Source of the DNA: Sporomusa malonica
GTDB lineage: Bacteria; Bacillota; Negativicutes; Sporomusales; Sporomusaceae
Length of the DNA: 64,000 nucleotides
Direction: 5' to 3'
NCBI RefSeq assembly: GCF_900176355.1
Contig: NZ_FWXI01000008.1
Coordinates: forward strand, 124,001 to 188,000
A program made the position numbers and the translations under genes. Position 1 is the first letter of the stretch. Every line of letters begins with the position of its first letter. The notes beneath the pieces were generated by a model. That model saw only the letters and a list, made by a program, of their open reading frames with translations. It did no database searches and was not told the origin of the DNA. Shown in pieces: positions 5,566-20,670 of the stretch.

Positions 5566-5696
5566 AAAACCGGCATTGCGAAGAAACTTAGCAATGCCGG
5601 TTTTTTACCGGTATTAATTTCTTCTTTTCGCAATGGAAGGTACTCCAGTTTCCCGAAGTACCTAACGGTCAGCAGTCATAGCCTTGGCTTTAGACC
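5566..5696 (-). promoter_or_regulatory. Structured leader of tupA with intrinsic terminator (candidate riboswitch)
   Basis: Read on the minus strand: a stem GGTC/GACC (5693-5696 with 5667-5670) enclosing AGCC/GGCT, a short linker, a perfect 7-bp hairpin AGGTACT/AGTACCT (5657-5663 with 5638-5644), the tail CCATTGCGAAAAG (about 5623-5636), then a 9-10 bp GC hairpin followed by T5 (5571-5600). The 9-base tail segment CATTGCGAA (5627-5635) is exactly complementary to TTCGCAATG in the terminator (5574-5582), so terminator and an alternative pairing exclude each other. The same plan precedes aor1 and aor2. The hairpin could also serve as the end of the cofactor operon. Confidence 0.6.
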
Positions 5697-5733
5697 TACA
5701 GACTCGAAGATTTATATGCAATTATTCAATAGG

Positions 5734-6228
5734 TTACGGCCTGGCGCATTCGCTGGCTTCACCTTTCATAATTTCCAGGCCATGCTCCAGGGCCGGGAGT
5801 ATAAACTCCAGGCATTCCCGGACTCCTTTGGGACTTCCTGGCAAATTAATAATGAGTGTGCGTCCGCGCAAACCAGCAGCCGCCCTCGACAGCATGGCGC
5901 GCGAGGTTTTTTCCAAAGACTTGGCACGCATAACCTCAGGAATACCTGGCACATGTCTGTCAATCACTTCTAAGGTAGCCTCAGGCGTTACATCACGCGG
6001 CCCAAAACCAGTGCCACCGGTTGTCAGAATCAGATCAATCTTCAGGTTGTCTGCCATATCAATCATTGTTTGGCTAAGTGCCTGGCGCTCATCAGGAACA
6101 ATTACATAATGCTTGACCTCGCCAAGCTCTGCTAACATTTCGGCAATGACCTTCCCGCTCAAGTCCTCACGTTCGCCACGCGAACCTTTGTCACTTGCGG
6201 TAATAATCCCAATGCTAAACACTTTCAA
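5734..6228 (-). CDS. mog: Molybdopterin adenylyltransferase (MogA/MoaB family)
   Basis: 164 residues. The family activates molybdopterin by adenylation before metal insertion by MoeA. The TTGGTGFGPRDVTPEA segment near residues 69-84 is the MPT-binding signature, and the INLPGSPKG strand-turn near 127 is also typical. It overlaps the MOSC gene by 14 bases and is the last gene of the cofactor operon that starts at 10848. Function in tungsten rather than molybdenum cofactor is inferred from the surrounding tup and aor genes. Confidence 0.9.
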   Translation of the reverse strand: MKVFSIGIITASDKGSRGEREDLSGKVIAEMLAELGEVKHYVIVPDERQALSQTMIDMADNLKIDLILTTGGTGFGPRDVTPEATLEVIDRHVPGIPEVMRAKSLEKTSRAMLSRAAAGLRGRTLIINLPGSPKGVRECLEFILPALEHGLEIMKGEASECARP

Positions 6229-6655
6229 TCACCTCAATTGTATCGCCATTAGCCACCAAGCCACCAGTGATTACAATGGCAAATATACCTTCCTTCGGCA
6301 TAACGCAGTCGCCAGCCTGATAGTAGATATTGCAGCGGGTGTGACACTCTTTGCCGATTTGACTGACCTCCATCAGTACATCCCCAATCTTGAGCTTAGT
6401 ACCGATTGGCAGGACCGGCAGATTAAGCCCCTCGGTAGTAATGTTCTCGGCAAAATCTCCTGGATGGACATCTAGTCCCATTTTGCGCATTTTTTCGATG
6501 CTTTCTAGGGCCAGCAAGCTTACCTGACGGTGTTTAAACCCAGCATGAGCATCGCCTTCAAGACCAAGTCCAACTAAAAGATTTGCCTTTCCCACGTTTT
6601 TTTTGCGTTCACCCTTATTCTTACTGGTACAAACAGCTATAATCTTTCCTTGCAT
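6215..6655 (-). CDS. MOSC domain protein
   Basis: 146 residues forming a single MOSC domain (beta-strand rich), with the conserved Cys in the ECHTRCNIYY segment near residues 103-112. MOSC domains occur in Moco sulfurases and in small stand-alone proteins placed next to mog/moaC, and are thought to carry sulfur or handle the finished cofactor. It lies 3 bases after moaC and overlaps mog by 14 bases, so it belongs to the operon. The exact reaction cannot be told from sequence. Confidence 0.88.
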   Translation of the reverse strand: MQGKIIAVCTSKNKGERKKNVGKANLLVGLGLEGDAHAGFKHRQVSLLALESIEKMRKMGLDVHPGDFAENITTEGLNLPVLPIGTKLKIGDVLMEVSQIGKECHTRCNIYYQAGDCVMPKEGIFAIVITGGLVANGDTIEVIESV

Positions 6656-6658
6656 AGG

Positions 6659-7135
6659 TTATTCCTCCCGTATATAGTCGCCGCTCTTGCCGCCTGACTT
6701 AGCTCGTAGGCGGACATATTCGATTGTCATGCCTTTGTCTACAGCTTTACACATATCATAAATTGTCAACGCCGCCACTGATACAGCCGTTAAAGCTTCC
6801 ATTTCCACCCCAGTCTTACCGGTGGTTTTGACCACAGCCCGAATTTCAACGGCATTGGCAATGTCATCAATAGCAAATTCAAGATTAACGCCTGTCAAAA
6901 GGAGCGGATGGCACATAGGAATCAGATCCCAGGTCCGCTTGGCGCCCATTACCCCAGCCACCTGGGCTACACCTAAGACATCGCCTTTACCCATAGCTCC
7001 CTGTTTCACCAGGCTAAGAGTAGACTGCTTCATGGTAATCCGTCCTTCGGCTACAGCCTCACGCTTGGTTTCATCTTTCACAGTTACGTCAACCATGCGT
7101 GCCTTGCCTGAGTTATTAAAGTGTGTAAGTTCCAT
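6659..7135 (-). CDS. moaC: Cyclic pyranopterin monophosphate synthase MoaC
   Basis: Converts the MoaA product to cPMP, the second half of the first cofactor step. 158 residues, normal length. The MCHPLLLTG segment near residue 74 and the [18 protein letters not shown] helix near 107-124 are MoaC hallmarks, and the C-terminal GKSGDY is conserved. Its partner moaA is not in this operon but sits 14 kb away at 20760. It is 31 bases downstream of moaD. Confidence 0.95.
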
Positions 7136-7166
7136 TAGTGTGTCTGAACTCCTTCCGTTAGCTTCT

Positions 7167-7412
7167 TTAACCCCCGCCTACCGGCGGGAATAAACCTACC
7201 CGATCGCCGCTCTTTAGTGCCTGGCCAGGCTGAGCCTGTACGCCATTCACCATAATAATCTTAATCTCATCAGGATTAAGAGGAAGCCTAGCAATAAGCT
7301 CATCAATCGTACTACCCTCCGCGGCTTCCATTGACAGCACACCGCCTGGCTTATCAGGAAAATAATTGCGAAGTGTAGCAAACAGCCGAACCTCTAACAC
7401 CATGCTGATCAC
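7167..7412 (-). CDS. moaD: MoaD/ThiS-type sulfur carrier protein
   Basis: 81 residues with a beta-grasp fold pattern ([12 protein letters not shown] near the N-terminus) and a C-terminal PPVGGG. The terminal Gly-Gly is the site of adenylation and thiocarboxylate formation, used by MPT synthase. No moaE is present in the window, so the large MPT synthase subunit must be elsewhere. The start overlaps the upstream moeA-PBP stop by 4 bases (ATGA); an ATG three codons later (7403) is an alternative. Confidence 0.85.
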
Positions 7413-9358
7413 TCTCCTAGTTCCTTGTTAATTGCAAGTATTGTGCCTGCTTCTGATAAATCGTACCCACCCAGCCGCTCAACTTCCTGGCGGAATTCAG
7501 GCGATTTCAGGATACTAACTATCATGTCAGCCATTAAATCCCCAGGCGGGAAATTCAAAATAATATCATAACACTCGTGTGATATCGGGATAAACTCGAG
7601 CCCCAATGCCATCGCCGCCGCCCTGATACCCATACCGGTATCAGCTGCACCGGCAGTAATGGTGGCAGCGACTGCCATATGGGTGCTGACTTCTTTTTCG
7701 TAGCCGTCAATCGTGCTGCAAGCCACGCCCTGTTTAGGCAGCAAATAATCCAACAGCATCCTGGTTCCTGAACCGCGCTGCCGATTTACATAGGCAATGT
7801 CTTCCCTGATTAAATCACTTAAGCCTTTAATATTCTTTGGATTGCCAGGCAAGACCATCAGGCCCTGATCACGCCGGGCCAGCCGCACCAATTGCCAGTT
7901 TATGTTAGCCAAATATTTGTTCACAAAGGAAATATTGTATTCTCCTGTTTTGTCGTCAAGCAGGTGAATACCGGCAATATGGGCCTCTCCATTCTTTATC
8001 GCCATAATGCCGCCCATGCTACCAACATTAGCGGCTGTAAGCAGCATGTTGGTCTGACGTTTTAGGAATACCCCCAGAATATCCAGGGCCAAATCATGGC
8101 TGCCGACAGCTAGCAATGTATTTAGCTGCTGTTGACTAAACAGTTTTACCTTGACCTCGGCACCAGCCGCCAGGCCTGGACTGTTTTCACCGACAGAGAT
8201 AACACCTTGGGCTTTAATAAGTGATGATATGATTCCCGCCCCGCGGCTAAGCGGTGCAGCTACTGTTTTCCCTTGGATTGAGGCGACAGACACGCGCACA
8301 AATTCCTCTACACCTACATGCGAATAGAGCTGGCGGGCTAACACTGCCGGAACTTCCTGCAGTTGTGGTTTAGGAAGCCTTTGCCGCTGGTACAGCACAT
8401 CTCTGACAAACAGTTCAGCAGTCAACATGGCTGAGACTGGGTATCCAGGCAGACCGATAACCGGCTTGCCGTTACAGAGTGCCAGCACCACCGGTTTTCC
8501 AGGCTTAATGGCCACTCCGTGCACCAATACCTCGCCAAGCTCAGACAAAATTCGTGAAGTAAAATCCTCAGTACCTGCTGAAGTTCCGGCGTTTGTAATA
8601 ACCATGTCACTTGTTTCAAGACTTTTGGCAACTGCTTGTTTTATCTGTTCATAATTATCTGGCACAATCTCGTGGCGTACCGGTTCACCACCCCAGGTAG
8701 ATACTGCCGCACACAGCATATGGGAGTTAACATCAAGGATGGCTCCTGGTTTCAGATCCTGTGACCGTGCCACAAGTTCGGTGCCGGTCGGGATAACAGT
8801 AACTTTAGGCTTAGCTACAACGTCAATTGTTTCAAGCCCGGCAGCTAATAAAGCCGCAATATCTGGTGGCGTAACCAACTGATGTTCAGGTAATACCATC
8901 TCATTGGCGACAATATCTTCACCAATAATGCGGACATGCTGCCAGGGTGTGGCAGCAGCAATGATCTCAGCAGAATTTCCGTCAATATGTACATCTTCAA
9001 TCATAATGACCGAATTTGTTCCAGCAGGCATTAAATCGCCGGTATCAACGATATAACAGCTGCCAGGAACAAAGGGCTCATTATTTTTCAACAAAGTTAA
9101 CCGTACCGGATTGGTCTCGGCTGCGCCAAAGGAATCCTGAGCCCGCACGGCAATTCCGTCCATGGCTGACCCGTTATAATGGGGTACTGATTGTTTGGCA
9201 TAGGTACAGCCAGCAGTGACCCGTCCCAACGCCTGTCCAATCAGCAGTGTTTCAACAGGCAGACTGGAAAAATAGCCTGCAGCTATTAGCCTGCTCTGCC
9301 ACAACTCCCCGGTTCTTTCCCTAGGTAAACATTCCAGGTATGCCTTTCCCTTATGCAT
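7409..9358 (-). CDS. moeA: MoeA-type molybdopterin molybdotransferase fused to a periplasmic-binding-protein-like domain
   Basis: 649 residues. The first ~405 are a full MoeA: PTGTELV near 190, GTSAGTEDFT near 258 and GLPGYPVSAM near 303. Residues ~410-649 match the PBP-like domain often fused to MoeA in clostridia and archaea (LLAVGSHDLALDILGVFL, later GSGTRMLLDYLL). MoeA inserts the metal oxyanion into adenylated MPT; the extra domain may bind molybdate, tungstate or a pterin. A second stand-alone moeA lies one base upstream, so metal selectivity (Mo versus W) could be divided between them. Confidence 0.9.
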   Translation of the reverse strand: MHKGKAYLECLPRERTGELWQSRLIAAGYFSSLPVETLLIGQALGRVTAGCTYAKQSVPHYNGSAMDGIAVRAQDSFGAAETNPVRLTLLKNNEPFVPGSCYIVDTGDLMPAGTNSVIMIEDVHIDGNSAEIIAAATPWQHVRIIGEDIVANEMVLPEHQLVTPPDIAALLAAGLETIDVVAKPKVTVIPTGTELVARSQDLKPGAILDVNSHMLCAAVSTWGGEPVRHEIVPDNYEQIKQAVAKSLETSDMVITNAGTSAGTEDFTSRILSELGEVLVHGVAIKPGKPVVLALCNGKPVIGLPGYPVSAMLTAELFVRDVLYQRQRLPKPQLQEVPAVLARQLYSHVGVEEFVRVSVASIQGKTVAAPLSRGAGIISSLIKAQGVISVGENSPGLAAGAEVKVKLFSQQQLNTLLAVGSHDLALDILGVFLKRQTNMLLTAANVGSMGGIMAIKNGEAHIAGIHLLDDKTGEYNISFVNKYLANINWQLVRLARRDQGLMVLPGNPKNIKGLSDLIREDIAYVNRQRGSGTRMLLDYLLPKQGVACSTIDGYEKEVSTHMAVAATITAGAADTGMGIRAAAMALGLEFIPISHECYDIILNFPPGDLMADMIVSILKSPEFRQEVERLGGYDLSEAGTILAINKELGE

Positions 9359-9359
9359 G

Positions 9360-10601
9360 TTAGGCCTCCCTCATTACTTCGACAGTTACCACATCTCCGG
9401 CATATAAACCACTGCTGCCCTCAGGCACCTGTACGACGCCATCCGCTTGTGTCATAACGCTGATCAGTCCCGATTTTCCTAATACCGGTTCTGCGCGATA
9501 TTCTCCCTCCAGCCAAATTAGCTTTACCCGCAAAAAATCATCTCTCCCAGGAGCAGAGGCACAATTCCTGGTCAATCTCGCAGAAATCTTGCAGCCTGCT
9601 TTTAGTGCTTTCAACCCCTGCAGCCTCTTAACTACCGGGATAACCAACATTTGGCAAATAGTCATCGCCGCTACCGGATGTCCGGGCAACCCAAATACCG
9701 GCACTCTACCAACCATCCCAAAAATTGTTGGCTTACCAGGTTTAACGGCTAATCCGTGAAAGACTACCTTCTGCCGCCCAAGCTCTTCTATAATCTGAAC
9801 AGTATGATCCCTAGCTCCGACTGAGCTACCGCCTGAGGCCAGTACCAGTTGGTTTTCGTTAACCCCTTTACTAACAGCTGCCAACAGCTCATCGTAATTA
9901 TCCTTAATAATCCCATAGCTAGTCACATGACACCCGGCTTCGGTCAACATGGCTGCCAAAGTATAGGAATTGACATCACGTACCTGACCGCCCACTGGTA
10001 CAGTGCTCACATCGACCACTTCATCGCCGGTGGAGATAATCCCGACCTTCAGCCGCTGCCGTACTTTTACCTTGTCAATACCACAGGCAGCCAGTGCGCC
10101 AATTTCGGCTGGCGTTAGCTTAGTACCTGCAGCAATAAACATAGCACCTGCCTTTATATCTTCGCCTTTAGTCACAACATTCTCACCAGGAGCTGCCGGC
10201 TTTAGCACCAGGAGGGTTTCATGGTCAGAGCGTTCTGTATGCTCCAGCATAACCACAGCATCGGCACCAGCAGGCAACATACCGCCGGTCGGCATAATGA
10301 CAGCTTGTCCGGAAACAATACTAGCTTCAGTTGACTGTCCCATGAAGACTTCATCAGTAACAGTGAGCATTACCGGAACCCCTTCGCCTGCGCCAAAGGT
10401 ATCACGGCTAAGCACTGCATACCCATCAACCGTTGAACGGCTAAATGGCGGCAGATCAACACCAGCGGCAATATCCACTGCAGTGATCCGCCCCAAAGCC
10501 TGCATAAGCCCAACTTCCTCAGGTTCTGCTGTTAGTTCTGGCAGGCTGCTGTCAATTAGACTGGTTGCTTTTGCTAGTGGGATACAATCAAAGAAATCCA
10601 T
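9360..10601 (-). CDS. moeA: Molybdopterin molybdotransferase MoeA
   Basis: 413 residues, standard single MoeA with motifs STGDEVV near 190, GGSSVGARDHT near 254 and GLPGHPVAAM near 304. It catalyses metal insertion into adenylated molybdopterin. The ATG at 10601 is chosen because GGAG stands six bases before it; an in-frame start at 10625 would lie inside the preceding gene and lacks a site. It is separated from the fused moeA by one base and from the small upstream ORF by one base, so translation is tightly coupled. Confidence 0.93.
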   Translation of the reverse strand: MDFFDCIPLAKATSLIDSSLPELTAEPEEVGLMQALGRITAVDIAAGVDLPPFSRSTVDGYAVLSRDTFGAGEGVPVMLTVTDEVFMGQSTEASIVSGQAVIMPTGGMLPAGADAVVMLEHTERSDHETLLVLKPAAPGENVVTKGEDIKAGAMFIAAGTKLTPAEIGALAACGIDKVKVRQRLKVGIISTGDEVVDVSTVPVGGQVRDVNSYTLAAMLTEAGCHVTSYGIIKDNYDELLAAVSKGVNENQLVLASGGSSVGARDHTVQIIEELGRQKVVFHGLAVKPGKPTIFGMVGRVPVFGLPGHPVAAMTICQMLVIPVVKRLQGLKALKAGCKISARLTRNCASAPGRDDFLRVKLIWLEGEYRAEPVLGKSGLISVMTQADGVVQVPEGSSGLYAGDVVTVEVMREA

Positions 10602-10602
10602 G

Positions 10603-10848
10603 TCAGTCTCCTTTGTCGACCCCAAAACAACCTAACTGACAGGCAGTAATTTTTACTTTGGCAGCATCAGCTGCCAGGCCGACAACAATGGGCGGCACAC
10701 CCTCGGCATTGGCCAGTTGTGTTGCTTGAACACATGTCAGACGACCGTCTTTAGCCAATTCGCGTACTTTTTCCTTGATGACTTCATTTACTTGTTCCAT
10801 GGCTGCCTCCAATAATTGATAAAGATTCATATCTTTATATTTTGCCAT
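10603..10848 (-). CDS. Small protein of unknown function heading the cofactor operon
   Basis: 81 residues that I do not recognise. The N-terminal half is an amphipathic helix (QLLEAAMEQVNEVIKEKV). The middle (LTCVQATQLANAEGVPPIVV) has the spacing of a helix-turn-helix and contains Cys. The C-terminus has a second CxxxC (TACQLGCFG). This could be a small regulator or a metallochaperone-like protein. A second possible start at 10800 (MEQVNEV) has GGAGG at ideal spacing and would give 65 residues. Direct coupling to moeA implies a cofactor-related role. Confidence 0.7.
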   Translation of the reverse strand: MAKYKDMNLYQLLEAAMEQVNEVIKEKVRELAKDGRLTCVQATQLANAEGVPPIVVGLAADAAKVKITACQLGCFGVDKGD

Positions 10849-10881
10849 TTGCTTAATAATTCCTGCAATATTTTTTGATAA

Positions 10882-10941
10882 CTTATATCTATATTACCTA
10901 AAATTGTAAATAACGTCACGTTTACATTACAAAAATGTGAC
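10882..10941 (-). promoter_or_regulatory. Cofactor-operon promoter with GTCA-N19-TGAC operator
   Basis: On the minus strand TTTACA (10905-10910) and TATAAG (10882-10887) are 17 bases apart, a sigma-70-type promoter for the operon starting at 10848. Just upstream is an inverted repeat with cores at 10915-10918 and 10938-10941, 19 bases apart. The same core spacing and the GTCACGTTTA half occur in the aor1 activator region, and a one-base variant in the adh region, so one regulator may bind all three. Confidence 0.55.
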
Positions 10942-10948
10942 ATTATTA

Positions 10949-12037
10949 TTATGGGCAAATAATTAGATCCCTCGCCCACAAGCAATCAGAGCAAGTTGGA
11001 TTATTGCCCCAACAGTCAGCCTCATTGGTTAAGACTGTAGAACAACCATCTAGTAGTCTGCAATCTGTGCATGAGGGGTAGTCTGCAGTCCGCACCATCC
11101 AACGAAAACGAGCGTATTGGGGTGTAGTCCAAATTTCTTCTATACTTCTGTCCTTCACATTTCCAAAGCTATGAGCCAACATTTCCTTTTTACGTCCCAT
11201 AATGTAGCAGCTATAACTATGCATAAAAGCATAACATGGACTGACTTCCCCCTGCCAAGTAACTGTTAAGGCTTTGTTTTCAACAAAGCGGCAATGCCTT
11301 GCCGTTCGCAGTTGCATATTAGGAGCAGCTTTAACAGATAAAAAAGTAGATTCTCGTCCAAACGAATTTAAATCCAATCCATTATCGTAAAGAATCTCAT
11401 CTTTCATGCTTTCATGGTATGGCAAAACATTTGTTACTATCAGCTTATGAGCACCAATCCGGTCTGTAAGCGCGGGCATTGCGGGGAGTTTCCTAATGTT
11501 TTGTTTAGTTGCTACAAATTCCACTCCAAGCTCGGGTTTATTGGACTTTTTCTCTTTTTTCAACTTCTGTAAATACTCAATATTCCTAATAACCTCATCA
11601 TAGCTTGCACCCGGTCTTATCGTCTCAAAAGATTGATCATCCGGCCCGTCGAGAGAAACAAATATCCAATCTAACCCTACTTCTATTAGATGGGATGCTA
11701 CTTGAGGCGTAAGCATAGACCCATTTGTTATCATTTCAACAGACAGTCCCAATCCTTTGCATTTTTTAATCATTTCCAAAATATTCGGATGGGTAAGCGG
11801 TTCTCCAAAACCACCAAAATGAACGAATTGTAAACTAGGTAACCCTTTCATATCATCATACAGCTTGTTAAAAACCTGGATAGACATGTCACCCATTTGG
11901 TCAGTCCAAGAATGCCGGATACAAGTTATACAAGAGTAGTTGCATTTGGTGGTCACTTCCACATAGATTTTCTTAACATCCGGCTTTAATGGTATCGAAA
12001 TATTTTCTTCTCCAGTGCTAAACTGGTAATGCTTCAT
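10949..12037 (-). CDS. Radical SAM/SPASM protein, probable tungsten-oxidoreductase maturase
   Basis: 362 residues. The radical-SAM motif CNYSCITC (near residues 34-41) binds the catalytic 4Fe-4S cluster, GGFGEPLTHP follows near 78, and the last ~100 residues hold many Cys (CRF, CYAF, SCTDCRLLDGC, CSDCLW), typical of a SPASM domain with auxiliary clusters. Maturases of this type sit beside AOR-family genes; it follows aor1 directly. The ATG at 12037 with AGGTGG five bases upstream is preferred over the GTG at 12046. The product or modification is not known. Confidence 0.82.
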   Translation of the reverse strand: MKHYQFSTGEENISIPLKPDVKKIYVEVTTKCNYSCITCIRHSWTDQMGDMSIQVFNKLYDDMKGLPSLQFVHFGGFGEPLTHPNILEMIKKCKGLGLSVEMITNGSMLTPQVASHLIEVGLDWIFVSLDGPDDQSFETIRPGASYDEVIRNIEYLQKLKKEKKSNKPELGVEFVATKQNIRKLPAMPALTDRIGAHKLIVTNVLPYHESMKDEILYDNGLDLNSFGRESTFLSVKAAPNMQLRTARHCRFVENKALTVTWQGEVSPCYAFMHSYSCYIMGRKKEMLAHSFGNVKDRSIEEIWTTPQYARFRWMVRTADYPSCTDCRLLDGCSTVLTNEADCWGNNPTCSDCLWARDLIICP

Positions 12038-12140
12038 AGCTTCCACCTACTCCATAACTACTATTCCTAAGCCTGAATACCATTGACTAGTTACTCTTGA
12101 AGCGATGCACTCGGCAAGGTTTCAAACAGTGTTCATTCCG

Positions 12141-12313: not shown

Positions 12314-14035
12314 TTAGAAGTTAAATACTTGTTTAAGTTCTTCTTTAGGAATATCAAATACCACATCATGGGGTTTGAGGGATTCAAAGCGGAAGAAGTC
12401 TGGCAAATCATCGGATTCGTCGCCAAAGCCTGCTGCTTTGTTAAAGGCACGCTCGTCACGAAGTACTTCCTTGCCAAGTTCGAGGTAATCATTAAGGGTG
12501 TAATTCCAGCCGTAGCGGGCGTTACACATCTCAACAATACCTTCCATACCTTCAGGAATATCAAGGATGGCAAAAGCTACGAACAGGCACAAACCGGTAG
12601 TGTCAATAAAGGAGGTCGCGATTTGGAAGTTACGGGACAGATCAACCTGACCTTCAGCTGCCAATGGGTCAGTTTTGCCGCTTACACCCAGGATATTGGT
12701 AGCAACAACATATCCGGCAGTGTGGTCAGCTCCCATAGTCGTGGTAGCGTACGTTACGCCAACACCTTTAACAGCACGGGGGTCATAGGCAGGAATGCCT
12801 TGGCCTTTAACGGTTGGCACGCGGGTTACGCCATATACTTTGCCGGTAACTGCGGCGCCTGCGCCTAAGATCCGGCCAAGCGGAGTTGCCTTACCCATTT
12901 CGTGGATTAGTTCAATAGCAGCTTTGCTATCGCCAAACTTTGCGATACCAGCTTCCATTGCCACCCCTAGAGTAACAGCCATTTCAATCGTATCAACGCC
13001 ATAATCGTCACATAGACGGTTCATATAGGCAATGTCATCAAGGTTGTTTGCACCAATGTTTGCCCCAAAGCCCCAGCAAGTTTCGTATTCAAGACCGCCG
13101 GTAACCATTTCGCCCTCTTTATTCTTATAGGTTTGCGAGCAACGAATAATACAGCCTGGTGAGCATGCATGGGTTGGGTTGGCGCCACGGGCTTTAATCG
13201 TTTCATACATCGTTTCGCCGCCAGTGTCGTTAGCGTTTTCAAAACGGCCTTCTGAGAAATTTCTGGTCGGCAGGCCGCCAGCTTCGTTCAAAATGTTAAC
13301 AAGCACGTTAGTTCCGTATGTTGGCAGGCCTTGACCGGTTACGGCATGGCTGGTCAGCGCTTTAGCCAGTTTCTTCGCACCAGCTCTAAAGGCTTCCTCA
13401 TTCGCAAAGGCAATATTGGCAGCACCAGCATCATCAACAACAATAGCTTTTAAGCCTTTACTGCCCATGACTGCACCCAGACCACCACGGCCAGCTTGAC
13501 GGGTAGGTTCACCCTCCTGGTCGGTAGCACCGATACAAGCTGAGGCCATTTTGTTTTCCCCTGCAGTACCGATAGCGGCTATACCGACCTTTTGTCCGTA
13601 CTTTTGCTGAAGTTTAGCAGTAGTATCATAAATATTGAGACCTTTTAGTTCAGGGCATTCTTCTAATTTAATCCCGTCTTTGGTAACAACCATCGTGTAC
13701 AGTTTACCATCTTGAGCTACATCTTCAACAATAATAGCTTCTGCGCCAGCGCGGGCAAGTTTATGGCCGATAAAGCCGCCAACGTTGCTTTCTTTAATCG
13801 TCCCAGTCAGCGGACTTTTAGCCCCGAAAGACATACGACCAGCATTAGGAGCAAATGTACCAGTTAAAAATCCTGGTGCAAGAATTAGTTTGTTGAGCTT
13901 CCCAAGCGCATGGGCATTGGCATCAACCTCAATTTTAACAATCTTGGAAGTGAGCGCCCGTCCGGCCAGGCCTTTGTACTGCTCGCCTGCGTCTTTGGTC
14001 ACTGTAAGAGTGGCCATGTTAACACGATAAAACAT
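12314..14035 (-). CDS. aor: Tungsten-dependent aldehyde:ferredoxin oxidoreductase, copy 1
   Basis: 573 residues. AOR oxidises aldehydes to acids with ferredoxin, or reduces acids in reverse, using a bis-pterin tungsten centre and one 4Fe-4S cluster. Candidate cluster ligands are Cys291, Cys295 and Cys299 (CSPGCIIRC) and Cys483 (DTTGLCLF). This is a C-x3-C-x3-C form, unlike the C-x2-C-x3-C of Pyrococcus AOR. The pterin-binding AGRGGLGAVMGSKGLKA is at 181-197. TAGGAGGAGATTTAC precedes the ATG. Expression should need sigma-54 (14253-14268) and pass the leader at 14070-14187. The protein differs from aor2 at only residues 138, 144 and 148. Confidence 0.95.
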   Translation of the reverse strand: MFYRVNMATLTVTKDAGEQYKGLAGRALTSKIVKIEVDANAHALGKLNKLILAPGFLTGTFAPNAGRMSFGAKSPLTGTIKESNVGGFIGHKLARAGAEAIIVEDVAQDGKLYTMVVTKDGIKLEECPELKGLNIYDTTAKLQQKYGQKVGIAAIGTAGENKMASACIGATDQEGEPTRQAGRGGLGAVMGSKGLKAIVVDDAGAANIAFANEEAFRAGAKKLAKALTSHAVTGQGLPTYGTNVLVNILNEAGGLPTRNFSEGRFENANDTGGETMYETIKARGANPTHACSPGCIIRCSQTYKNKEGEMVTGGLEYETCWGFGANIGANNLDDIAYMNRLCDDYGVDTIEMAVTLGVAMEAGIAKFGDSKAAIELIHEMGKATPLGRILGAGAAVTGKVYGVTRVPTVKGQGIPAYDPRAVKGVGVTYATTTMGADHTAGYVVATNILGVSGKTDPLAAEGQVDLSRNFQIATSFIDTTGLCLFVAFAILDIPEGMEGIVEMCNARYGWNYTLNDYLELGKEVLRDERAFNKAAGFGDESDDLPDFFRFESLKPHDVVFDIPKEELKQVFNF

Positions 14036-14069: not shown

Positions 14070-14187
14070 AAAAACAAAAAAAGAGGTCTAAAAAAATTTT
14101 AGTACCTCTTCCTTTGCACAATGGCAGGCACGATAATTACTCATCATACCCTAAGGTTTATTATCTCCCAGTAGGGATGATAATAAA
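14070..14187 (-). promoter_or_regulatory. Structured leader of aor1 with intrinsic terminator (candidate riboswitch)
   Basis: On the minus strand: hairpin 1 (TTTATTATC/GATAATAAA, 14157-14187, with an inner TCCC/GGGA), linker CCTTAG, hairpin 2 (8 bp, GGTATGAT/ATCGTGCC, 14127-14150, loop GAGTAATT), tail TGCCATTGTGCAAAGG (14111-14126), then the stem AAGAGGT/ACCTCTT followed by a T-run (14070-14110). Hairpin 2, its loop and the tail are nearly the same in aor2, and the plan recurs before tupA. A terminator inside a 5' leader implies attenuation. Confidence 0.62.
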
Positions 14188-14252
14188 TCGGAAGCAATAT
14201 TCTCTTTTTTACCGCAACCTGAGACATACCCCGTAATTACAACTATTAACTC

Positions 14253-14530: not shown

Positions 14531-15691
14531 CTAAATGGCTGCCTTATAGATAGCCTCAATCTCTTCTTGAGTAGCTTGTTTAGGATTGGTTAAACCACAG
14601 GCGTCTTTAAGAGCATTAGCAGCAAGAGTCGGGATATCGCTTTCGCTAAAACCTTTAAGATCTTTCAGGCCGGCAGGAATGCCGATATCGGCAGAAAGTT
14701 CACGAATAGCGGCAAGCGCTACTGCAGCTGCTTCAGCGGCAGGCATTCCAGCAACATCTTTACCCATAGCTTTGGCGACCTCAACAAATCTCTCAGGAAC
14801 AACTTTCGCATTATAATCTTCAACTGCCGGAAGCAGGATAGCATTGCAAACACCATGCGGCAGATCATAGAATCCACCAAGTTGATGGGCCATTGCGTGT
14901 ACATATCCCAGGCTGGCGTTATTAAAGGCAACACCGGCAAGATATTCAGCATATGTCATCATTTCTCTGGCTTCCATGTCATTACCATTGGCAACGGCTC
15001 TTCTCAGGTAACCAGCTATCAATTCAATCGCTTTAATGGCGGCGCAGTCGGTAACCGGAGTAGCAATTATAGAAACATATGCTTCGATCGCATGGGTCAG
15101 TGCGTCCATGCCGGTAGCAGCAGTAAGCGACGGCGGCATGGCAACCATTAATTCGGCGTCATCAACGGCAATAACAGCGGTAGTATGCCAGTCAACGATA
15201 GCCATTTTTATATGACGGCTTTCGTCAGTAATGATACAGAATCTGGTCATTTGGCTGGCAGTGCCGGAAGTAGTATTAACAGCGATTAGAGGCATCTGGG
15301 GTTTTGCTGATTTATTAACACCTTCATAGTCTTCAATCTTTCCGCCGTTAGCAGCAACTAGGGCAATACCTTTCGCACAGTCATGCGGAGAGCCGCCACC
15401 GAAAGATATAACGAAATCACAGTCATTATCTTTGAGCAATTTCAAGCCAGCATTAACATTGCCAACGGTTGGATTAGGCTGAGCGCCATCAAAAATTACA
15501 TAGCCTACTTCCATCTTGTCAAGCAAATCGGTGAGCTTTTTGGTAAGTTGGATTTGAACAAGAACCTTATCACTGACTATTAGTGCTTTTTTAAAGCCCA
15601 TAGGTTTGATATAATCTGCGATGTCCTCAAGACAGCCAACGCCCATAATGGTTACCGGAGGCATAAAATACCCGTAAGATTTCTTAGTCAT
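14531..15691 (-). CDS. Iron-containing alcohol dehydrogenase (group III)
   Basis: 386 residues, NAD(P)-dependent, interconverting aldehydes and alcohols. The nucleotide-binding [11 protein letters not shown] is near residues 97-107. Fe ligands are expected in [13 protein letters not shown] (near 193-205) and in the paired His segments HAMAHQLGG and [13 protein letters not shown] near 260-285. AGGAGGAGTTTTATT precedes the ATG. The sigma-54 promoter and activator region match those of aor1, so AOR and this enzyme should be made together and would link carboxylates, aldehydes and alcohols. Substrate cannot be told; ethanol/acetaldehyde is plausible. Confidence 0.93.
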
Positions 15692-15928
15692 AATAAAACT
15701 CCTCCTTTTATTAACTCAAGCTTCACTAGATTACCTAACCAAAAGTAACTCACTTGACCGGGGGAACATCGCGAGCCGGACTTTATCTGGTTCACCTCCC
15801 GTATTGACAAAATCTTCAGTCTAATTTCGACAAATTAACCCTGCGCCCCACCGCTATGACTCCACCACCCAAGGCCCCGGTGGTATAAGCCAACGTTTCC
15901 CGGTATCGTAACTCATTAGTAGTATATT
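15692..15928 (-). other. Long untranslated leader of adh
   Basis: About 237 bases separate the sigma-54 promoter from the adh ATG. It contains a GC-rich part (ACCACC near 15881, GGTGGT near 15866 and GGTGGGG further on), able to form hairpins, and a GGGAGGTGAACCAG stretch that looks like a ribosome site without a good ORF. It lacks the hairpin/tail motif of the aor leaders. I see no terminator, so any control may act on translation or RNA stability. Confidence 0.45.
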
Positions 15929-15944
15929 GCAATTCTCATGCCAA
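15929..15944 (-). promoter_or_regulatory. Sigma-54 promoter of adh
   Basis: The same 16-mer TTGGCATGAGAATTGC as at aor1, followed by AATATA. GG and GC are 10 bases apart. Confidence 0.88.
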
Positions 15945-16015
15945 CCTTGTTTTTCTGGAAAAATAATCCTTTTGCAAACAATATCACGTTTTATCCTGTT
16001 AAAACTGTGTTAAAA

Positions 16016-16073
16016 GTGCGACATTTCTGTCATATTTGTGTTACATTTATAGCACACAAATATGACACATTAC
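16016..16073 (-). promoter_or_regulatory. Activator-binding region upstream of adh
   Basis: Aligns without gaps to 14330-14387. Cores are GTCA at 16029, GTTA at 16040 and TGAC at 16063-16066, with 11 and 19 base spacings kept. Its distance to the -12 element is 10 bp longer than at aor1, one helical turn, so the same DNA face is presented. Confidence 0.75.
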
Positions 16074-16123
16074 CTGATTGGTTATGCTACTTACATTGCT
16101 ATTCTGAAAATAAACAAAATTTC

Positions 16124-16167
16124 ACAAAAAAACCATCCAGTATCACCCTAAAGCAAACTAGATGGTT
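16124..16167 (-). terminator. Terminator after the 119-aa gene
   Basis: Arms AACCATC (16131-16137) and GATGGTT (16161-16167) are followed on the minus strand by a run of T (AAAAAAA on plus, 16124-16132). It lies 30 bases after the stop at 16199. Confidence 0.65.
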
Positions 16168-16198
16168 GTGCCATAGTACCCACATTGTACATCGTTCG

Positions 16199-16558
16199 TT
16201 AATGGGGGATAATAAGTTTACGAACTGCTTCTAGCCATTTCATAGCAACTTGCTTAGCTTTGGGATAATCAGTATGGTATTCACTAATTTTAATTTCACG
16301 ACGCTCCAGATCAGGAAATACTGCAAATCCAGAAATGTGGTATCCTTCTGGACTAGCTAATATTTCAACAAAGATGGCGTCGAGAGTATACGGATGTACA
16401 AAATTTGTGTACGGCTCATAATAAATCGCACATTCAAAACTCTCCTGTAGATTCTTGTTTACCTGCTCCACCCATACGTAGTGATGAGTGAAAGCAACTG
16501 GGCGAATCGGGTTTTCAAGGGTATATAGTGTAGGAATACGAAAAGTAATTTCCTTCAA
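16199..16558 (-). CDS. Hypothetical protein (119 aa)
   Basis: I do not recognise this protein. It has no signal peptide or membrane segment and is rich in aromatic residues (HHYVWV, YYEPYTNF, EYHTDYP). The C-terminal helix (AKQVAMKWLEAVRKLII) looks amphipathic. The start is a TTG at 16558 with GGAAGG about ten bases upstream. It sits between the activator gene and adh, has its own terminator, and is AT-richer than its neighbours. A link to the aldehyde/alcohol system is only positional. Confidence 0.6.
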   Translation of the reverse strand: MKEITFRIPTLYTLENPIRPVAFTHHYVWVEQVNKNLQESFECAIYYEPYTNFVHPYTLDAIFVEILASPEGYHISGFAVFPDLERREIKISEYHTDYPKAKQVAMKWLEAVRKLIIPH

Positions 16559-16646
16559 AAGTTTGTACCTTCCTTTTTAAGTAAATAGTGTAACGTTTGG
16601 CTATCATCATAACAAAAATAATTGTCAAAATCAAAAATCCGATTCG

Positions 16647-16692
16647 AAAAAAATAAAGACTTAACTTCGTATTATTCGAGAAGTTAAGTCTT
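16647..16692 (-). terminator. Terminator of the sigma-54 activator gene
   Basis: A 13-bp perfect stem (16656-16668 with 16680-16692, AAGACTTAACTTC) followed by T-rich sequence on the minus strand, starting 8 bases after the stop at 16700. Confidence 0.9.
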
Positions 16693-16699
16693 GCTTTCA

Positions 16700-18706
16700 T
16701 TAATTTTCTATTGCATATAAACGCATCTTGCGATAAAGCGTGTTACGGGAAACCCCAAATTCCCGGGCCACTACACTAACATTACCACCATACTTTGACA
16801 AAAGCGCCAAAATTTGCTGTCGCTCTGCTTCATTCATTAATTTTCGCCGCTGCTCACGGTCATTGCTTTCATTTGCGCTTAAAACAACCAATGGTTGTAG
16901 CGGATAACGAGCGTTTTTTTGCGTTCCATGCACCTCACTAGGTAAATGAGCTACAGTAATTTCCTCTGATTCTGTCAGACTTACCGCCCGTTCAACAATG
17001 TTTTGCAGTTCCCGTACATTCCCCGGCCAGTCGAATTGTTGCAAACACTCCAATACTGGCGGCTTAATATAAAACTTGCAACCTCGGTCCTTCCCAATTT
17101 TCTCTAAAAAATGTTTGAAAAGTAACGGGATATCTTGGACTCGGTTACGTAGCGGCGGAATGGTGAGAGAAATAACATTTAGCCGGTAGTAAAGATCCTG
17201 TCGGAAAGCCCCTTTCTCAACTTCTTTAGGTAAATTTTTATTGGTTGCACAAATCACCCGGACATTTATCGGAATCACTTTTTCACTACCGATGCGTGTC
17301 ACATTCTTTTCTTGTAGTACCCTCAGCAGTGCGACCTGCTGTTCTAACGGCATATCGCCAATTTCATCGAGAAAGATGGTGCCCCCTGAGGCCAATTCGA
17401 ACTTTCCTGGTTTCCCTCCTCGTATGGCACCGGTAAAGGCTCCCTCGACATAACCAAACAACTCGCTGCCGATGAGTTCCCGCGGTATTACACCACAATT
17501 AACTGCTACAAAGGGACCATTTCGCCATTCACTGCGATTATGAATGGCCTGGGCAAAAATCTCCTTGCCAGTACCACTCTCCCCTTGCAAAAGAATATTA
17601 GAGGATGTTGTTGCTGCCAGGGAAGCTACCCTTATGGCTTCAAGTATTTCTTTACTCTCTCCAATAATATTACTAAACTGTAAGGCTGCATGATAGCCGC
17701 TAAATCGATTCACTAGGTTTTGTACATGCTTAATCGGGCGCAGAATAATTACGCCACCCATGACCGTGCCTTGTTCATCAGTTAAAGGCTCTCCTGACGC
17801 TAAACAGTGAAATGTACTCTTGTTAGTATCTACCATGAGCTCGACATCTGTATATGGCTCTTTAGTATTAAGCATTCGCCATGTTGCTATCGCCTTACCG
17901 TTAAATATACGGTCTATAGACTTACCTAGCAGCTCTGATTCAGCTATATTTAAAATTTTTTTTGCCGCCGGATTTAATTGATTCACAATACCGCGTTCAT
18001 CAATCATGAGTATCCCGTCTGAAATTGTATTGAAGATATTAGTCGATCGGTTATTGGCTAAAACCAATTCCCTGTTCTTTCTCCTAATATCAAGCTGTGC
18101 CATAATGGCTTCTGCGGCTGCTACTACCATACCCAAGGTATGCAAATGAGACATATTAACGGCACCTGACATATCCAATATCCCTATAATTCGTCCACGA
18201 TCATCAAAGATAGGAGCAGCTGAGCATGTTAAACAATGATGTTTCTGGCAGTAATGCTCGGCGCCGGAAACCTGAATCGGTTTCTTAGTTACTACTGCAG
18301 TTCCTATCGCATTTGTGCCAGCTTCCTCTTCGCGCCAGGAAGCACCACGAAAAAAGTTATTGGTCAAGGGGTTATTTAATGTATCCTCATCACAGAGCAT
18401 TTCCATTATGTACCCTCGTTCATCGGTTAACACAACGACAAAACCGGATCCCTGAACAAATTTATAGAGATTGGTCATAAAGGGTTTTGCGATCGTTATT
18501 AGTTCTTGTTTCTCTAAAAGCATCGCACTTAGGGCAGCTTCAGCTAATTTACTATGAATACCGCTATCATATGGATTTACGCCGGCTTGCTCACAGCGAG
18601 TCCATGATTCGATTATTTGTGGACGAATCGTGGGCATCCAGTTTTCTCCGGAAACATAATCCTTCCAGGTAAGAAGAATACCACCTTGTTCACTATTTAC
18701 ACCCAT
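16700..18706 (-). CDS. Sigma-54-dependent activator (GAF-PAS-AAA+-Fis, AcoR-like)
   Basis: 668 residues. A GAF domain (~70-205) contains CQKHHCLTC (153-161), which might sense redox or metal. A PAS domain follows (~222-330). The AAA+ domain has Walker A GESGTGKE (375-382), the sigma-54 contact GAFTGA (422-427) and Walker B FLDEIGD (445-451). A Fis-type helix-turn-helix is at the C-terminus (GNVSVVAREFGVSRNTLYRKM). There is no receiver domain, so it responds to a small molecule rather than a kinase. GGAGGGGGTCGCA precedes the ATG. It is flanked by aor2 and adh, and the only sigma-54 promoters seen here are at aor1 and adh, its likely targets. Confidence 0.93.
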   Translation of the reverse strand: MGVNSEQGGILLTWKDYVSGENWMPTIRPQIIESWTRCEQAGVNPYDSGIHSKLAEAALSAMLLEKQELITIAKPFMTNLYKFVQGSGFVVVLTDERGYIMEMLCDEDTLNNPLTNNFFRGASWREEEAGTNAIGTAVVTKKPIQVSGAEHYCQKHHCLTCSAAPIFDDRGRIIGILDMSGAVNMSHLHTLGMVVAAAEAIMAQLDIRRKNRELVLANNRSTNIFNTISDGILMIDERGIVNQLNPAAKKILNIAESELLGKSIDRIFNGKAIATWRMLNTKEPYTDVELMVDTNKSTFHCLASGEPLTDEQGTVMGGVIILRPIKHVQNLVNRFSGYHAALQFSNIIGESKEILEAIRVASLAATTSSNILLQGESGTGKEIFAQAIHNRSEWRNGPFVAVNCGVIPRELIGSELFGYVEGAFTGAIRGGKPGKFELASGGTIFLDEIGDMPLEQQVALLRVLQEKNVTRIGSEKVIPINVRVICATNKNLPKEVEKGAFRQDLYYRLNVISLTIPPLRNRVQDIPLLFKHFLEKIGKDRGCKFYIKPPVLECLQQFDWPGNVRELQNIVERAVSLTESEEITVAHLPSEVHGTQKNARYPLQPLVVLSANESNDREQRRKLMNEAERQQILALLSKYGGNVSVVAREFGVSRNTLYRKMRLYAIEN

Positions 18707-18778
18707 TGCGACCCCCTCCGCTTAACAATACTATTTTTTTCAATAATTACAATTAATTGGAAGAAAGCTTGTATACAG

Positions 18779-18804
18779 GAGCCCGGCCTAATAAAGCCGG
18801 GCTC
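18779..18804 (-). terminator. Hairpin after aor2
   Basis: A 9-bp stem GAGCCCGGC/GCCGGGCTC with an 8-base loop, shortly after the aor2 stop. The T-tract is poor. It differs in loop and stem base from the hairpin after aor1, so it lies just outside the near-identical duplicated part. Confidence 0.65.
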
Positions 18805-18817
18805 CAGGCTGTAAACA

Positions 18818-20539
18818 TTAGAAATTAAATACCTGTTTAAGTTCTTCTTTAGGAATATCAAATACCACATCATGGGGTTTGAGGGATTCAAAGCGGAAGA
18901 AGTCTGGCAAATCATCGGATTCGTCGCCAAAGCCTGCTGCTTTGTTAAAGGCACGCTCGTCACGAAGTACTTCCTTGCCAAGTTCGAGGTAATCATTAAG
19001 GGTGTAGTTCCAGCCGTAGCGGGCATTACACATCTCAACAATACCTTCCATACCTTCAGGAATATCAAGGATGGCAAAAGCTACGAACAGGCACAAACCG
19101 GTAGTGTCAATAAAGGAGGTCGCGATTTGGAAGTTACGGGACAGATCAACTTGGCCTTCAGCTGCTAATGGGTCAGTTTTGCCGCTTACGCCCAGAATAT
19201 TAGTAGCAACAACATAACCGGCAGTGTGGTCAGCTCCCATAGTCGTTGTAGCGTACGTTACGCCAACACCTTTAACAGCACGGGGGTCATAGGCAGGAAT
19301 GCCTTGGCCTTTAACAGTCGGCACGCGGGTTACGCCATATACTTTGCCAGTAACAGCGGCGCCTGCGCCTAAGATCCGGCCAAGCGGAGTTGCCTTACCC
19401 ATTTCGTGGATTAGTTCAATAGCAGCTTTGCTATCGCCAAACTTTGCGATACCAGCTTCCATTGCCACCCCTAGAGTAACAGCCATTTCAATCGTATCTA
19501 CGCCATAATCGTCACATAGACGGTTCATATAGGCAATGTCATCAAGGTTGTTTGCCCCAATGTTCGCACCAAAACCCCAGCAAGTTTCGTATTCAAGACC
19601 GCCGGTAACCATTTCGCCCTCTTTATTCTTATAGGTTTGCGAGCAACGAATAATACAGCCTGGTGAGCATGCATGGGTTGGGTTGGCGCCACGGGCTTTA
19701 ATAGTTTCATACATCGTTTCGCCGCCAGTGTCGTTAGCGTTTTCAAAACGGCCTTCTGAGAAGTTTCTGGTCGGCAGGCCGCCAGCTTCGTTCAAAATGT
19801 TAACAAGCACGTTAGTTCCATAGGTTGGCAGGCCTTGACCGGTTACGGCATGGCTGGTCAGCGCTTTAGCCAGTTTCTTCGCACCAGCTCTAAAGGCTTC
19901 CTCATTCGCAAAGGCAATATTGGCAGCACCAGCATCATCAACAACAATAGCTTTTAAGCCTTTACTGCCCATGACTGCACCCAGACCACCACGGCCAGCT
20001 TGACGGGTAGGTTCACCCTCCTGGTCGGTAGCACCGATACAAGCTGAGGCCATTTTGTTTTCCCCTGCAGTACCGATAGCGGCTATACCGACTTTGAGGC
20101 CATACTTCTCCTGAAGTTTAGCAGTAGCATCATAGATATTCAGCCCCTTAAGCTCAGGGCATTCTTCTAATTTAATCCCGTCTTTGGTAACAACCATCGT
20201 GTACAGTTTACCATCTTGAGCTACATCTTCAACAATAATAGCTTCTGCGCCAGCGCGGGCAAGTTTATGGCCGATAAAGCCGCCAACGTTGCTTTCTTTA
20301 ATCGTCCCAGTCAGCGGGCTCTTAGCTCCGAAGGACATACGACCAGCATTAGGAGCAAATGTACCAGTTAAAAATCCTGGTGCAAGAATTAGTTTGTTGA
20401 GCTTCCCAAGCGCATGGGCATTGGCATCAACCTCAATTTTAACAATCTTGGAAGTGAGCGCCCGTCCGGCCAGGCCTTTGTACTGCTCGCCTGCGTCTTT
20501 GGTCACTGTAAGAGTGGCCATGTTAACACGGTAAAACAT
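18818..20539 (-). CDS. aor: Tungsten-dependent aldehyde:ferredoxin oxidoreductase, copy 2
   Basis: 573 residues, same reaction, motifs and Cys ligands as copy 1. The products differ at residue 138 (Ala for Thr), 144 (Glu for Gln) and 148 (Leu for Gln). In the DNA a dense patch of differences covers those codons (20081-20155 against 13577-13651), while most of the remainder is identical. TAAGGAGGAGATTAC precedes the ATG. The leader keeps the candidate riboswitch but there is no sigma-54 promoter or activator region, so it is probably expressed under other conditions, for instance constitutively. Confidence 0.95.
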   Translation of the reverse strand: MFYRVNMATLTVTKDAGEQYKGLAGRALTSKIVKIEVDANAHALGKLNKLILAPGFLTGTFAPNAGRMSFGAKSPLTGTIKESNVGGFIGHKLARAGAEAIIVEDVAQDGKLYTMVVTKDGIKLEECPELKGLNIYDATAKLQEKYGLKVGIAAIGTAGENKMASACIGATDQEGEPTRQAGRGGLGAVMGSKGLKAIVVDDAGAANIAFANEEAFRAGAKKLAKALTSHAVTGQGLPTYGTNVLVNILNEAGGLPTRNFSEGRFENANDTGGETMYETIKARGANPTHACSPGCIIRCSQTYKNKEGEMVTGGLEYETCWGFGANIGANNLDDIAYMNRLCDDYGVDTIEMAVTLGVAMEAGIAKFGDSKAAIELIHEMGKATPLGRILGAGAAVTGKVYGVTRVPTVKGQGIPAYDPRAVKGVGVTYATTTMGADHTAGYVVATNILGVSGKTDPLAAEGQVDLSRNFQIATSFIDTTGLCLFVAFAILDIPEGMEGIVEMCNARYGWNYTLNDYLELGKEVLRDERAFNKAAGFGDESDDLPDFFRFESLKPHDVVFDIPKEELKQVFNF

Positions 20540-20572
20540 GTAATCTCCTCCTTAATTATGCAAAATAGAAAT

Positions 20573-20670
20573 AAAAAAAGAAGTCTGAATACAGACTTCC
20601 TTTGCACAAGGCAGGCATGAAAATTACTCTTCATACCCTTTCGGCCAGTATATCCTCATGGGAGGTACTG
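20573..20670 (-). promoter_or_regulatory. Structured leader of aor2 with intrinsic terminator (candidate riboswitch)
   Basis: On the minus strand: hairpin 1 CAGTA/TACTG (20646-20670, inner CCTC/GAGG), linker GCCGAAAG, hairpin 2 GGTATGA/TCATGCC (20614-20637) with loop AGAGTAATTT, tail TGCCTTGTGCAAAGG (about 20599-20613), then stem GAAGTCTG/CAGACTTC followed by T7 (20573-20599). The tail's GGAAG runs into the terminator's first arm, so ligand-dependent folding could switch termination. The loop GAGTAATT and the tail are shared with aor1, while hairpin 1 is maintained with different bases, a sign of selection on structure. Confidence 0.65.

Follow-up and report, generated by a model that had tools for sequence, protein, structure and literature searches.

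Judged by their sequences, the tupA, aor1 and aor2 leaders of the window, the whole stretch of 64,000 nucleotides of Sporomusa malonica DNA analysed here, are members of the known RF01055 (Moco RNA) riboswitch family and not a new class, and all three are P3-less, a form linked to the tungsten cofactor (Tuco) by Regulski et al. 2008 (PMC2408646). We consider it probable that these P3-less (Tuco/Wco-type) riboswitches act on transcription termination in opposite directions. This proposal builds on the family membership, structure, covariation in the aor-type form, strand sharing and recurrence in relatives observed here.

Assignment of the leaders to the RF01055 family

All three leaders score above the RF01055 gathering cut-off of 36 bits in cmscan, with Rfam E-values of 1.9e-12 for tupA and of 1.9e-7 and 6e-7 for the other two. 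The alignments extend over the whole model length, with the P3 columns gapped in each. P1, P2, P4 and P5 are common to the three leaders (in tupA by the Rfam alignment only), and P4 carries a GNRA tetraloop, GAAA in tupA and GUAA in aor1 and aor2. The loop shared by the latter two, GAGTAATT, was also considered as a non-GNRA octaloop, a reading that was dropped, as it reads as a GUAA tetraloop closed by A-U and G-U. We named this divergent, receptor-less form, in which an A-U pair closes the GUAA loop, type II. The elements are listed below (P1 helices, GUAA loops and tupA terminator from the sequence, tupA tetraloop and receptor by eye).

5605..5721, minus strand: tupA aptamer, RF01055, P3-less (cmscan 61.9 bits, R1 43.1 bits)
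5649-5652, minus strand: GAAA tetraloop of tupA
5688-5694 with 5676-5680, minus strand: 11-nt-type receptor in P2 of tupA
5565..5600, minus strand: tupA intrinsic terminator (hairpin 5570-5600, U-run 5565-5569)
5574..5635, minus strand: tupA antiterminator, a pairing of arm 5618-5635 (3' side of P5/P1) with 5574-5586 (3' arm of the terminator)
14105..14198, minus strand: aor1 aptamer, type II, no P3 (RF01055 43.1 bits; R1 86.1 bits, as part of the R1 training set)
14190-14194 with 14108-14112, minus strand: aor1 P1
14137-14140, minus strand: aor1 GUAA loop
14076..14115, minus strand: aor1 terminator, 5' arm including the P1 3' strand
20593..20683, minus strand: aor2 aptamer, type II (RF01055 44.8 bits; R1 83.6 bits, as part of the R1 training set)
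20675-20681 with 20594-20600, minus strand: aor2 P1
20624-20627, minus strand: aor2 GUAA loop
20573..20603, minus strand: aor2 terminator, 5' arm including the P1 3' strand

The aptamers span 5617-5714 (tupA), 14105-14198 (aor1) and 20593-20683 (aor2) according to the model R1, and 5605-5721, 14095-14205 and 20581-20690, respectively, according to Rfam. By these spans, the leader ranges given in a preliminary description of this DNA contain the elements but cut off the P1 5' strand. On re-reading the minus strand, the hairpins, the terminators and the shared aor1/aor2 loop and tail that it had reported were all present; its hairpin 1 corresponds to P2, its hairpin 2 to P4, and its tail to P5 plus the P1 3' strand. 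Its proposal of a tungsten or cofactor riboswitch, possibly moco RNA, is borne out by the Rfam scores and the P3-less form.

The same description had called for covarying homologues in relatives, and such homologues were found. In an alignment of 41 type II sequences, including aor1 and aor2 and excluding tupA, 17 of 29 pairs changed on both sides, and double-sided changes occupied 125 cells against 38.9 in shuffles, a value reached by 0 of 500 shuffles. The structure exceeds chance, given the Rfam E-values together with this type II covariation. The aor1 and aor2 coding regions are equal at 1678 of 1722 bases, with 3 amino-acid differences, and their leaders diverge widely.

The genes of the window include the following.

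4603..5478, minus strand: tupA-like gene, tungstate-binding protein (NCBIfam NF041772, 243 bits, below the cut-off of 400)
10949..12046, minus strand: tungsten cofactor oxidoreductase radical SAM maturase (TIGR04317, 430 bits, cut-off 380)
12314..14035, minus strand: aor1, aldehyde:ferredoxin oxidoreductase (AOR; PF01314 268.9 and PF02730 187.8 bits, above cut-off)
16700..18706, minus strand: sigma-54 activator downstream of aor2 (PF00158, 230 bits)
18818..20539, minus strand: aor2, AOR, near-copy of aor1 (PF01314 268.9 and PF02730 184.5 bits)

Tungsten-cofactor genes are thus present in the organism, by the TIGR04317 match and the AORs, the TupA label being below its cut-off.

Expression platforms in the window

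The three leaders had been described as one common design, which does not hold, since tupA differs from aor1 and aor2 in loop, receptor and expression platform. In the tupA leader the aptamer is standard, the terminator stands apart from it and an antiterminator arm is present, and the predicted platform is OFF; the leader's segment CATTGCGAA indeed complements the 3' arm of the terminator, in agreement with the earlier description. By eye, this complementarity is preserved in the two further tupA leaders seen (G009 and G011). In folding calculations the terminator persists when P1 is forced (-55.2 kcal/mol), and forcing the antiterminator gives -50.0 against -55.6 kcal/mol for the free fold; because the free fold favours the terminator by 5.6 kcal/mol, OFF control of tupA would need kinetics.

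In aor1 and aor2 the P1 3' strand lies within the terminator 5' arm, a predicted ON platform, and no P2 tetraloop receptor was seen by eye in either leader. The aor1 leader folds freely with its terminator at -47.6 and with P1 forced at -39.6, the upper portion of the terminator hairpin still folding in the latter case; the corresponding values for aor2 are -43.5 and -33.9.

Platforms among relatives

The platforms of 199 aptamers were called by script in classes set by the loop alone, as an automatic receptor search was unreliable (one version was too loose, and the strict one misses the tupA receptor). Not counted are 11 of 70 class matches (a decayed aor3 leader and 10 extra type II copies from AOR loci that the count already includes) and, among the phylum matches, the 18 with the weakest E-values. 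Among 82 type II aptamers, 69 were ON, 2 OFF and 11 without terminator, and by eye the two OFF calls appear ON; the 102 GAAA aptamers comprised 15 ON, 77 OFF and 10 without terminator. The 15 with unclear loop gave 5 ON, 8 OFF and 2 none; in 4 of them no loop was detected, and in the other 11 the loop was not GAAA and lacked A-U closure. With shuffled downstream sequence, ON was called in 21/410 cases for type II and 34/510 for GAAA. Sorted by gene, aptamers with an AOR within 900 nt (n=62) were 51 ON, 1 OFF and 10 none, and those before other genes (n=137) were 38 ON, 86 OFF and 13 none.

The combination of type II, AOR and ON occurs in 19 families, and AOR-ON aptamers occur together with non-AOR-OFF aptamers in 11 genomes of 5 families, including the window's own. 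Type II occurs across the phylum of the window, with named loci in Negativicutes and other Bacillota, and at two AOR loci in Chloroflexota. By script, no terminator is present in two (L165, L168) of the seven type II leaders that precede named AORs. Five further AORs (L126, L154, L166, L170, L175) have a GAAA-type leader and no terminator, and translational ON control was considered for them. Two leaders of the GAAA class that precede AORs (G306, G307) are both ON and resemble type II except in the loop. Antisense control by convergent aptamer pairs (G004, G005, G006) was considered but set aside, each having its own downstream ORF.

Tungstate response of Sporomusa ovata

Published RT-qPCR of S. 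ovata at 10x tungstate reported aor1-2 up 30.4-fold, aor4 up 14.3-fold and aor3 unchanged. In genome G004, which we infer to be S. ovata, aor1 and aor2 have tandem intact type II leaders and both AORs of contig C5 are preceded by intact type II leaders; the aor3 leader matches model positions 12-80 only and has lost both P1 strands. The AOR measurements thus agree with the state of the leaders, those that may belong to the induced genes being intact and that of the uninduced aor3 decayed.

The rises also published for mop2 (3.8-fold) and fdhA2 (3.3-fold) with tungstate are not explained by the ON/OFF scheme. The mop2 operon lies behind a P3-less GAAA-type leader called OFF, and the fdhA2 leader has no convincing terminator and only a weak hairpin (-7.3). 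The presumed mop2 gene is not a single open frame, and its larger readable piece, the part scanned, carries the molybdenum-hydroxylase domains MoCoBD_1 and MoCoBD_2. Possible fdhA1 frames lie on contig C1 at 810322-813840 (plus) and 819923 to about 822600 (minus), and no aptamer was found around either. The minus frame has an in-frame TGA adjoining a weak SECIS match.

Proposed mechanism and alternatives

What we infer from these results is the ligand with its metal, and the switching as such. In ligand-free tupA, the 3' side of P5/P1 would be able to pair with the 3' arm of the terminator, letting transcription proceed; with ligand, a stabilised P1 would capture that strand, the terminator would form and import would be turned off. 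In aor1 and aor2, P1 stabilised by ligand would hold back the terminator 5'-arm strand, breaking the terminator so that the tungstoenzyme is made. Such opposite switches would couple enzyme production to cofactor supply. We also think it rather likely that type II, often overlooked by Rfam, forms a separate ON branch within the Moco/Tuco RNA family and turns on tungstoenzymes and their activators when the tungsten cofactor is present, while GAAA aptamers of the same genomes turn off import and synthesis; this would account for the 30-fold AOR induction in S. ovata and, through decay, for the lack of response of aor3.

The ligand might instead be Moco, or the pterin cofactor with whichever metal, the absence of P3 not setting the metal. 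The presumed mop2 behind a P3-less leader in G004 speaks for this, as does the 2008 paper, which derives the tungsten preference of the P3-less variant from gene context and reports that P3 deletion in the E. coli RNA abolished control and did not switch specificity. We regard it as unlikely, given that the window genes are tungsten genes (the maturase and AORs) and that S. ovata AOR transcripts increase with tungstate. Tungstate effects on transcripts could also pass through sigma-54 activators, which adjoin aor genes in the window and in G004 and account for three scanned genes behind type II leaders. If all three leaders were OFF switches like that of E. coli moaA, the genetic case in the 2008 paper, these activators would induce aor; this seems very improbable to us, since P1 and terminator share a strand in 69/82 type II aptamers versus 21/410 shuffles, which argues for ON, and aor3, with its decayed leader, is not induced. 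A new class unrelated to moco RNA, which the preliminary description had entertained, finds a hint in six loci of relatives, where Rfam at cut-off detects 1 aptamer and R1 detects 18, most of them from its own training set; it is refuted by the RF01055 scores of all three leaders over the whole model and their common P1-P2-P4-P5, and we give it almost no credence.

The clear ON platform, the natural knock-out (aor3) and the known tungstate response of a culturable acetogen would open the way to cell tests of the tungsten-side proposal, for which a literature search found no later test. Added tungstate increased the ethanol output of gas-fermenting acetogens, and type II control would bear on their alcohol production.

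Comparison with known riboswitches

The window leaders resemble Moco RNA (RF01055) in P1, P2, P4, P5, the GNRA-capped P4 and the kind of gene context, and differ from it in that all lack P3, a feature missing in 58 of 176 examples in PMC2408646. In the family, a tetraloop receptor in P2 is usual, with exceptions, and that paper gives four GCAA-loop examples, none with a receptor; aor1 and aor2 have neither a P2 receptor (by eye) nor a GAAA loop. Their platform is of the ON type, unlike the OFF switch of that paper's genetic case, and its main-text parts contain no link that we saw between gene type and ON or OFF control. In 2008 the tungsten side of the family was a proposal, and the paper did not demonstrate direct ligand binding, cofactor instability having precluded binding tests. 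With the P3-less Tuco (Wco) variant the leaders share both the lack of P3 and the tungsten genes downstream. In adenine pbuE-type ON riboswitches, an aptamer strand doubles as part of a terminator arm and the ligand breaks the terminator. The aor1 and aor2 leaders likewise share an aptamer strand with the terminator arm, and differ from the pbuE type in aptamer and ligand.

The leaders are members of the Mo/W riboswitch family

Structured RNAs are found in the minus-strand leaders of the tupA-like gene and of the two aldehyde:ferredoxin oxidoreductase (AOR) genes, which confirms the preliminary description. When the whole window was searched with cmscan, three matches were at or over any family's cut-off, all to RF01055, the Molybdenum/Tungsten riboswitch aptamer (cut-off 36 bits):

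5605-5721, minus strand, aptamer of the tupA leader, 61.9 bits
14095-14205, minus strand, aptamer of the aor1 leader, 43.1 bits
20581-20690, minus strand, aptamer of the aor2 leader, 44.8 bits

The P3 columns are gaps in all three Rfam alignments. In the anatomy first described, hairpin 1 corresponds to P2 and hairpin 2 to P4, and the tail comprises P5 with the P1 3' strand; the P1 5' strand had been overlooked. Its interpretation, left between the known class, a tungsten variant and a new class, holds in part: the family is the known one, within which aor1 and aor2 are set apart as a probable ON branch. The family assignment is itself ordinary; the interest lies in this branch and in a ready-made experiment in Sporomusa ovata.

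The same stretch carries tupABC-like genes and an iron-type alcohol dehydrogenase-like gene (both labels scoring under cut-offs, those of NCBIfam for tupABC), molybdopterin synthesis genes, a sigma-54 activator, the two AORs (PF01314 and PF02730) and a tungsten cofactor oxidoreductase radical SAM maturase (TIGR04317, 430 bits, cut-off 380). The coding regions of aor1 and aor2 are equal at 1678 of 1722 bases, with three amino-acid differences, and despite this near identity their leaders are far diverged, with the fold kept.

Two forms of the aptamer

The window's genome has nine RF01055 matches. At E 0.001 the family was found in at least 10 of 12 genomes of the bacterial family, with at least 73 matches, at least 64 of them over the cut-off, in a search whose first pass scored up to 128 candidates per genome. 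Reading these matches distinguished two forms, type I (tupA-like), in which GAAA caps P4, and type II (aor1/aor2-like), with a GNAA or similar P4 loop (N not A) closed by an A-U pair, a GC/GC P5, no P3 and no P2 receptor seen by eye.

In an alignment of 41 type II sequences, with the structure written by hand after the Rfam model, pairing holds in 96.2% of cells and both sides change in 17 of 29 pairs. Such changes occupy 125 cells, against 38.9 in shuffles that retain relatedness, none of 500 being as high. Sliding the partners lowered pairing below 50%, a control that leans towards the structure, partly fitted on the same sequences.

The covariance model made from this alignment, R1, was run at E 0.001 on 380 genomes of the class, 22 of which had matches, and on 398 drawn from the phylum, where 76 did; type I makes up many of the weaker hits. 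At six loci of relatives it gave 18 matches, mostly its own training sequences, versus one for Rfam at its cut-off; within the bacterial family at least 22 of 50 R1 matches were also found by the RF01055 search.

Predicted opposite signs of the expression platforms

The free folds of the aor1 and aor2 leaders contain the terminator (-47.6 and -43.5 kcal/mol), and forcing P1 gives -39.6 and -33.9 kcal/mol; even so, the aor1 terminator hairpin keeps its upper part when P1 is forced. Transcripts ending at the P1 3' strand fold as the aptamer, with P1. The aptamer could thus form first, to be replaced by the terminator unless P1 is held, and from these energies and truncated folds both leaders are predicted to be ON switches. 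The tupA leader keeps its terminator with P1 forced (-55.2 kcal/mol). Its candidate antiterminator, CATTGCGAA..GAAG with the terminator 3' arm, reaches -50.0 versus -55.6 kcal/mol for the free fold, and because of this cost of 5.6 kcal/mol it would have to act co-transcriptionally. The complementarity is readable by eye, with changes, in the tupA leaders of two relatives (G009 and G011).

For each of 199 aptamers (73 RF01055 matches from the bacterial family and 126 R1 matches) a script chose the best hairpin followed by a U-run within 130 nt. The call was ON if 4 nt or more of the P1 3' strand fell in the terminator 5' arm, otherwise OFF. AOR genes were called by an HMM built from 80 AOR proteins.

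Platform calls by aptamer group (ON, OFF, no terminator)
Type II (82): 69, 2, 11
GAAA (102): 15, 77, 10
Loop unclear (15): 5, 8, 2
AOR within 900 nt: 51, 1, 10
Before other genes: 38, 86, 13

Both type II aptamers called OFF (G678:C33:12110 and G000:C17:17800) read as ON by eye, and several ON-called type I cases are weak hairpins. With shuffled downstream sequence, ON was called in 21 of 410 type II and 34 of 510 GAAA cases. The ON/OFF difference between AOR and other genes has a Fisher p of 1.3e-18 among terminator-bearing aptamers, kinship ignored. Type II AOR leaders called ON occur in 19 families, and AOR-ON and non-AOR-OFF aptamers occur together in 11 genomes of five families. Two type II AOR leaders, L192 (G005:C57:72408) and L250 (G315:C2:3411), have a hairpin past P1 without a U-run.

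R1 matches lie immediately before the AOR at 12 of 80 named AOR loci, for some of which the upstream sequence is incomplete. The top seven (at least 56.9 bits) are type II, from one Negativicutes MAG, two Thermincola MAGs, two other Bacillota and two Anaerolineae (Chloroflexota); five are ON, and the script found no terminator at the other two (L165, L168). The remaining five, from Peptococcaceae, Geobacter, Pelobacter, Spirochaetes and Clostridiales, are GAAA-type, and no terminator was found at them.

Other genes behind the aptamers

Type II is not confined to AOR genes (25 of 82 lie elsewhere). Among the genes scanned behind these are three sigma-54 activators, a 2Fe-2S thioredoxin-like gene, a trigger factor and Fe-S and NrfD subunit genes; others are moeA, divergent from an AOR, a ThiF gene adjoining AOR genes and a TetR regulator. 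The trigger factor gene (L050:808-2139; PF05697, PF05698) belongs to G003, with a similar frame in G005. At locus L217 two type II aptamers, both called ON, stand back to back between AOR and moeA (6535-6623, minus; 6804-6892, plus).

In G004, three tandem RF01055 aptamers (L059; G004:C5:353436-354044, minus) lie upstream of a TonB-dependent receptor gene (PF00593, PF07715), and one (G004:C3:73427) precedes another TonB receptor, which suggests that these bacteria take up tungstate/molybdate or a carrier across the outer membrane. Recurring behind GAAA-type aptamers is a protein some 558 residues long that has no Pfam match at 1e-5 (L040:844-2517; similar frames by eye in G004, G005, G006, G008 and G010). 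GAAA-type aptamers also precede long frames with secretion-signal-like starts (G006:C2:56672 and 758236; G004:C5:50137), two identical leaders in G006 among them.

Tungstate response in Sporomusa ovata

Ammam et al. (2016; PMC4973070) grew S. ovata at 1x or 10x tungstate and report that transcripts rose for aor1-2 (30.4-fold, one primer pair for both), aor4 (14.3-fold), mop2 (3.8-fold) and fdhA2 (3.3-fold), those of aor3, mop1, fdhA1 and five alcohol dehydrogenases being unchanged. We infer that genome G004 is their strain, as its Aor1 and Aor2 frames (579 and 484 aa) have the published lengths, and aor3, mop1, mop2, fdhA1 and fdhA2 follow one another in an order, and at approximate distances, that agree with the published locus numbers.

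In G004, aor1 and aor2 are each preceded by two intact tandem type II aptamers, and both AORs on contig C5 have intact type II leaders; either may be aor4, the position fitting neither well. GAAA-type aptamers precede the genes that we take to be mop2 and fdhA2. In the aor3 leader the R1 match is limited to positions 12-80, both P1 strands being lost, with no terminator seen by eye, and no own aptamer was found in the stretches scanned around mop1 and two candidate fdhA1 frames. An aptamer is thus present for each of the four measured transcripts that rose, and an intact one is missing at mop1, fdhA1 and aor3. Since the mop2 leader is called OFF and the direction of the fdhA2 leader is not clear-cut, it is the AOR part of these data that supports the ON model; the mop2 leader could be a Moco-sensing OFF switch relieved as tungsten displaces molybdenum.

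A group II intron domain (RF00029, L210:13606-13680) lies about 310 nt upstream of the mop2 operon aptamer in G004. In a formate dehydrogenase frame (L214:15924-18640, minus) a TGA codon falls in frame next to a SECIS_3 match under its cut-off, and the product is probably a selenocysteine enzyme.

Comparison with known systems

Regulski et al. (2008; PMC2408646) already describe the family and its P3-less tungsten form. They also report that some members have terminators, that a genome can carry several copies and that four members with a GCAA loop lack the receptor. Tandem Wco riboswitches appear in PMC9481103. In our searches of open-licence main texts we found no statement of ON control for members before tungstoenzymes and no link of the family to the S. 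ovata data. Because the family is in print but these two points were not found there, the AOR leaders represent a new variant, probably of opposite sign, within a known family.
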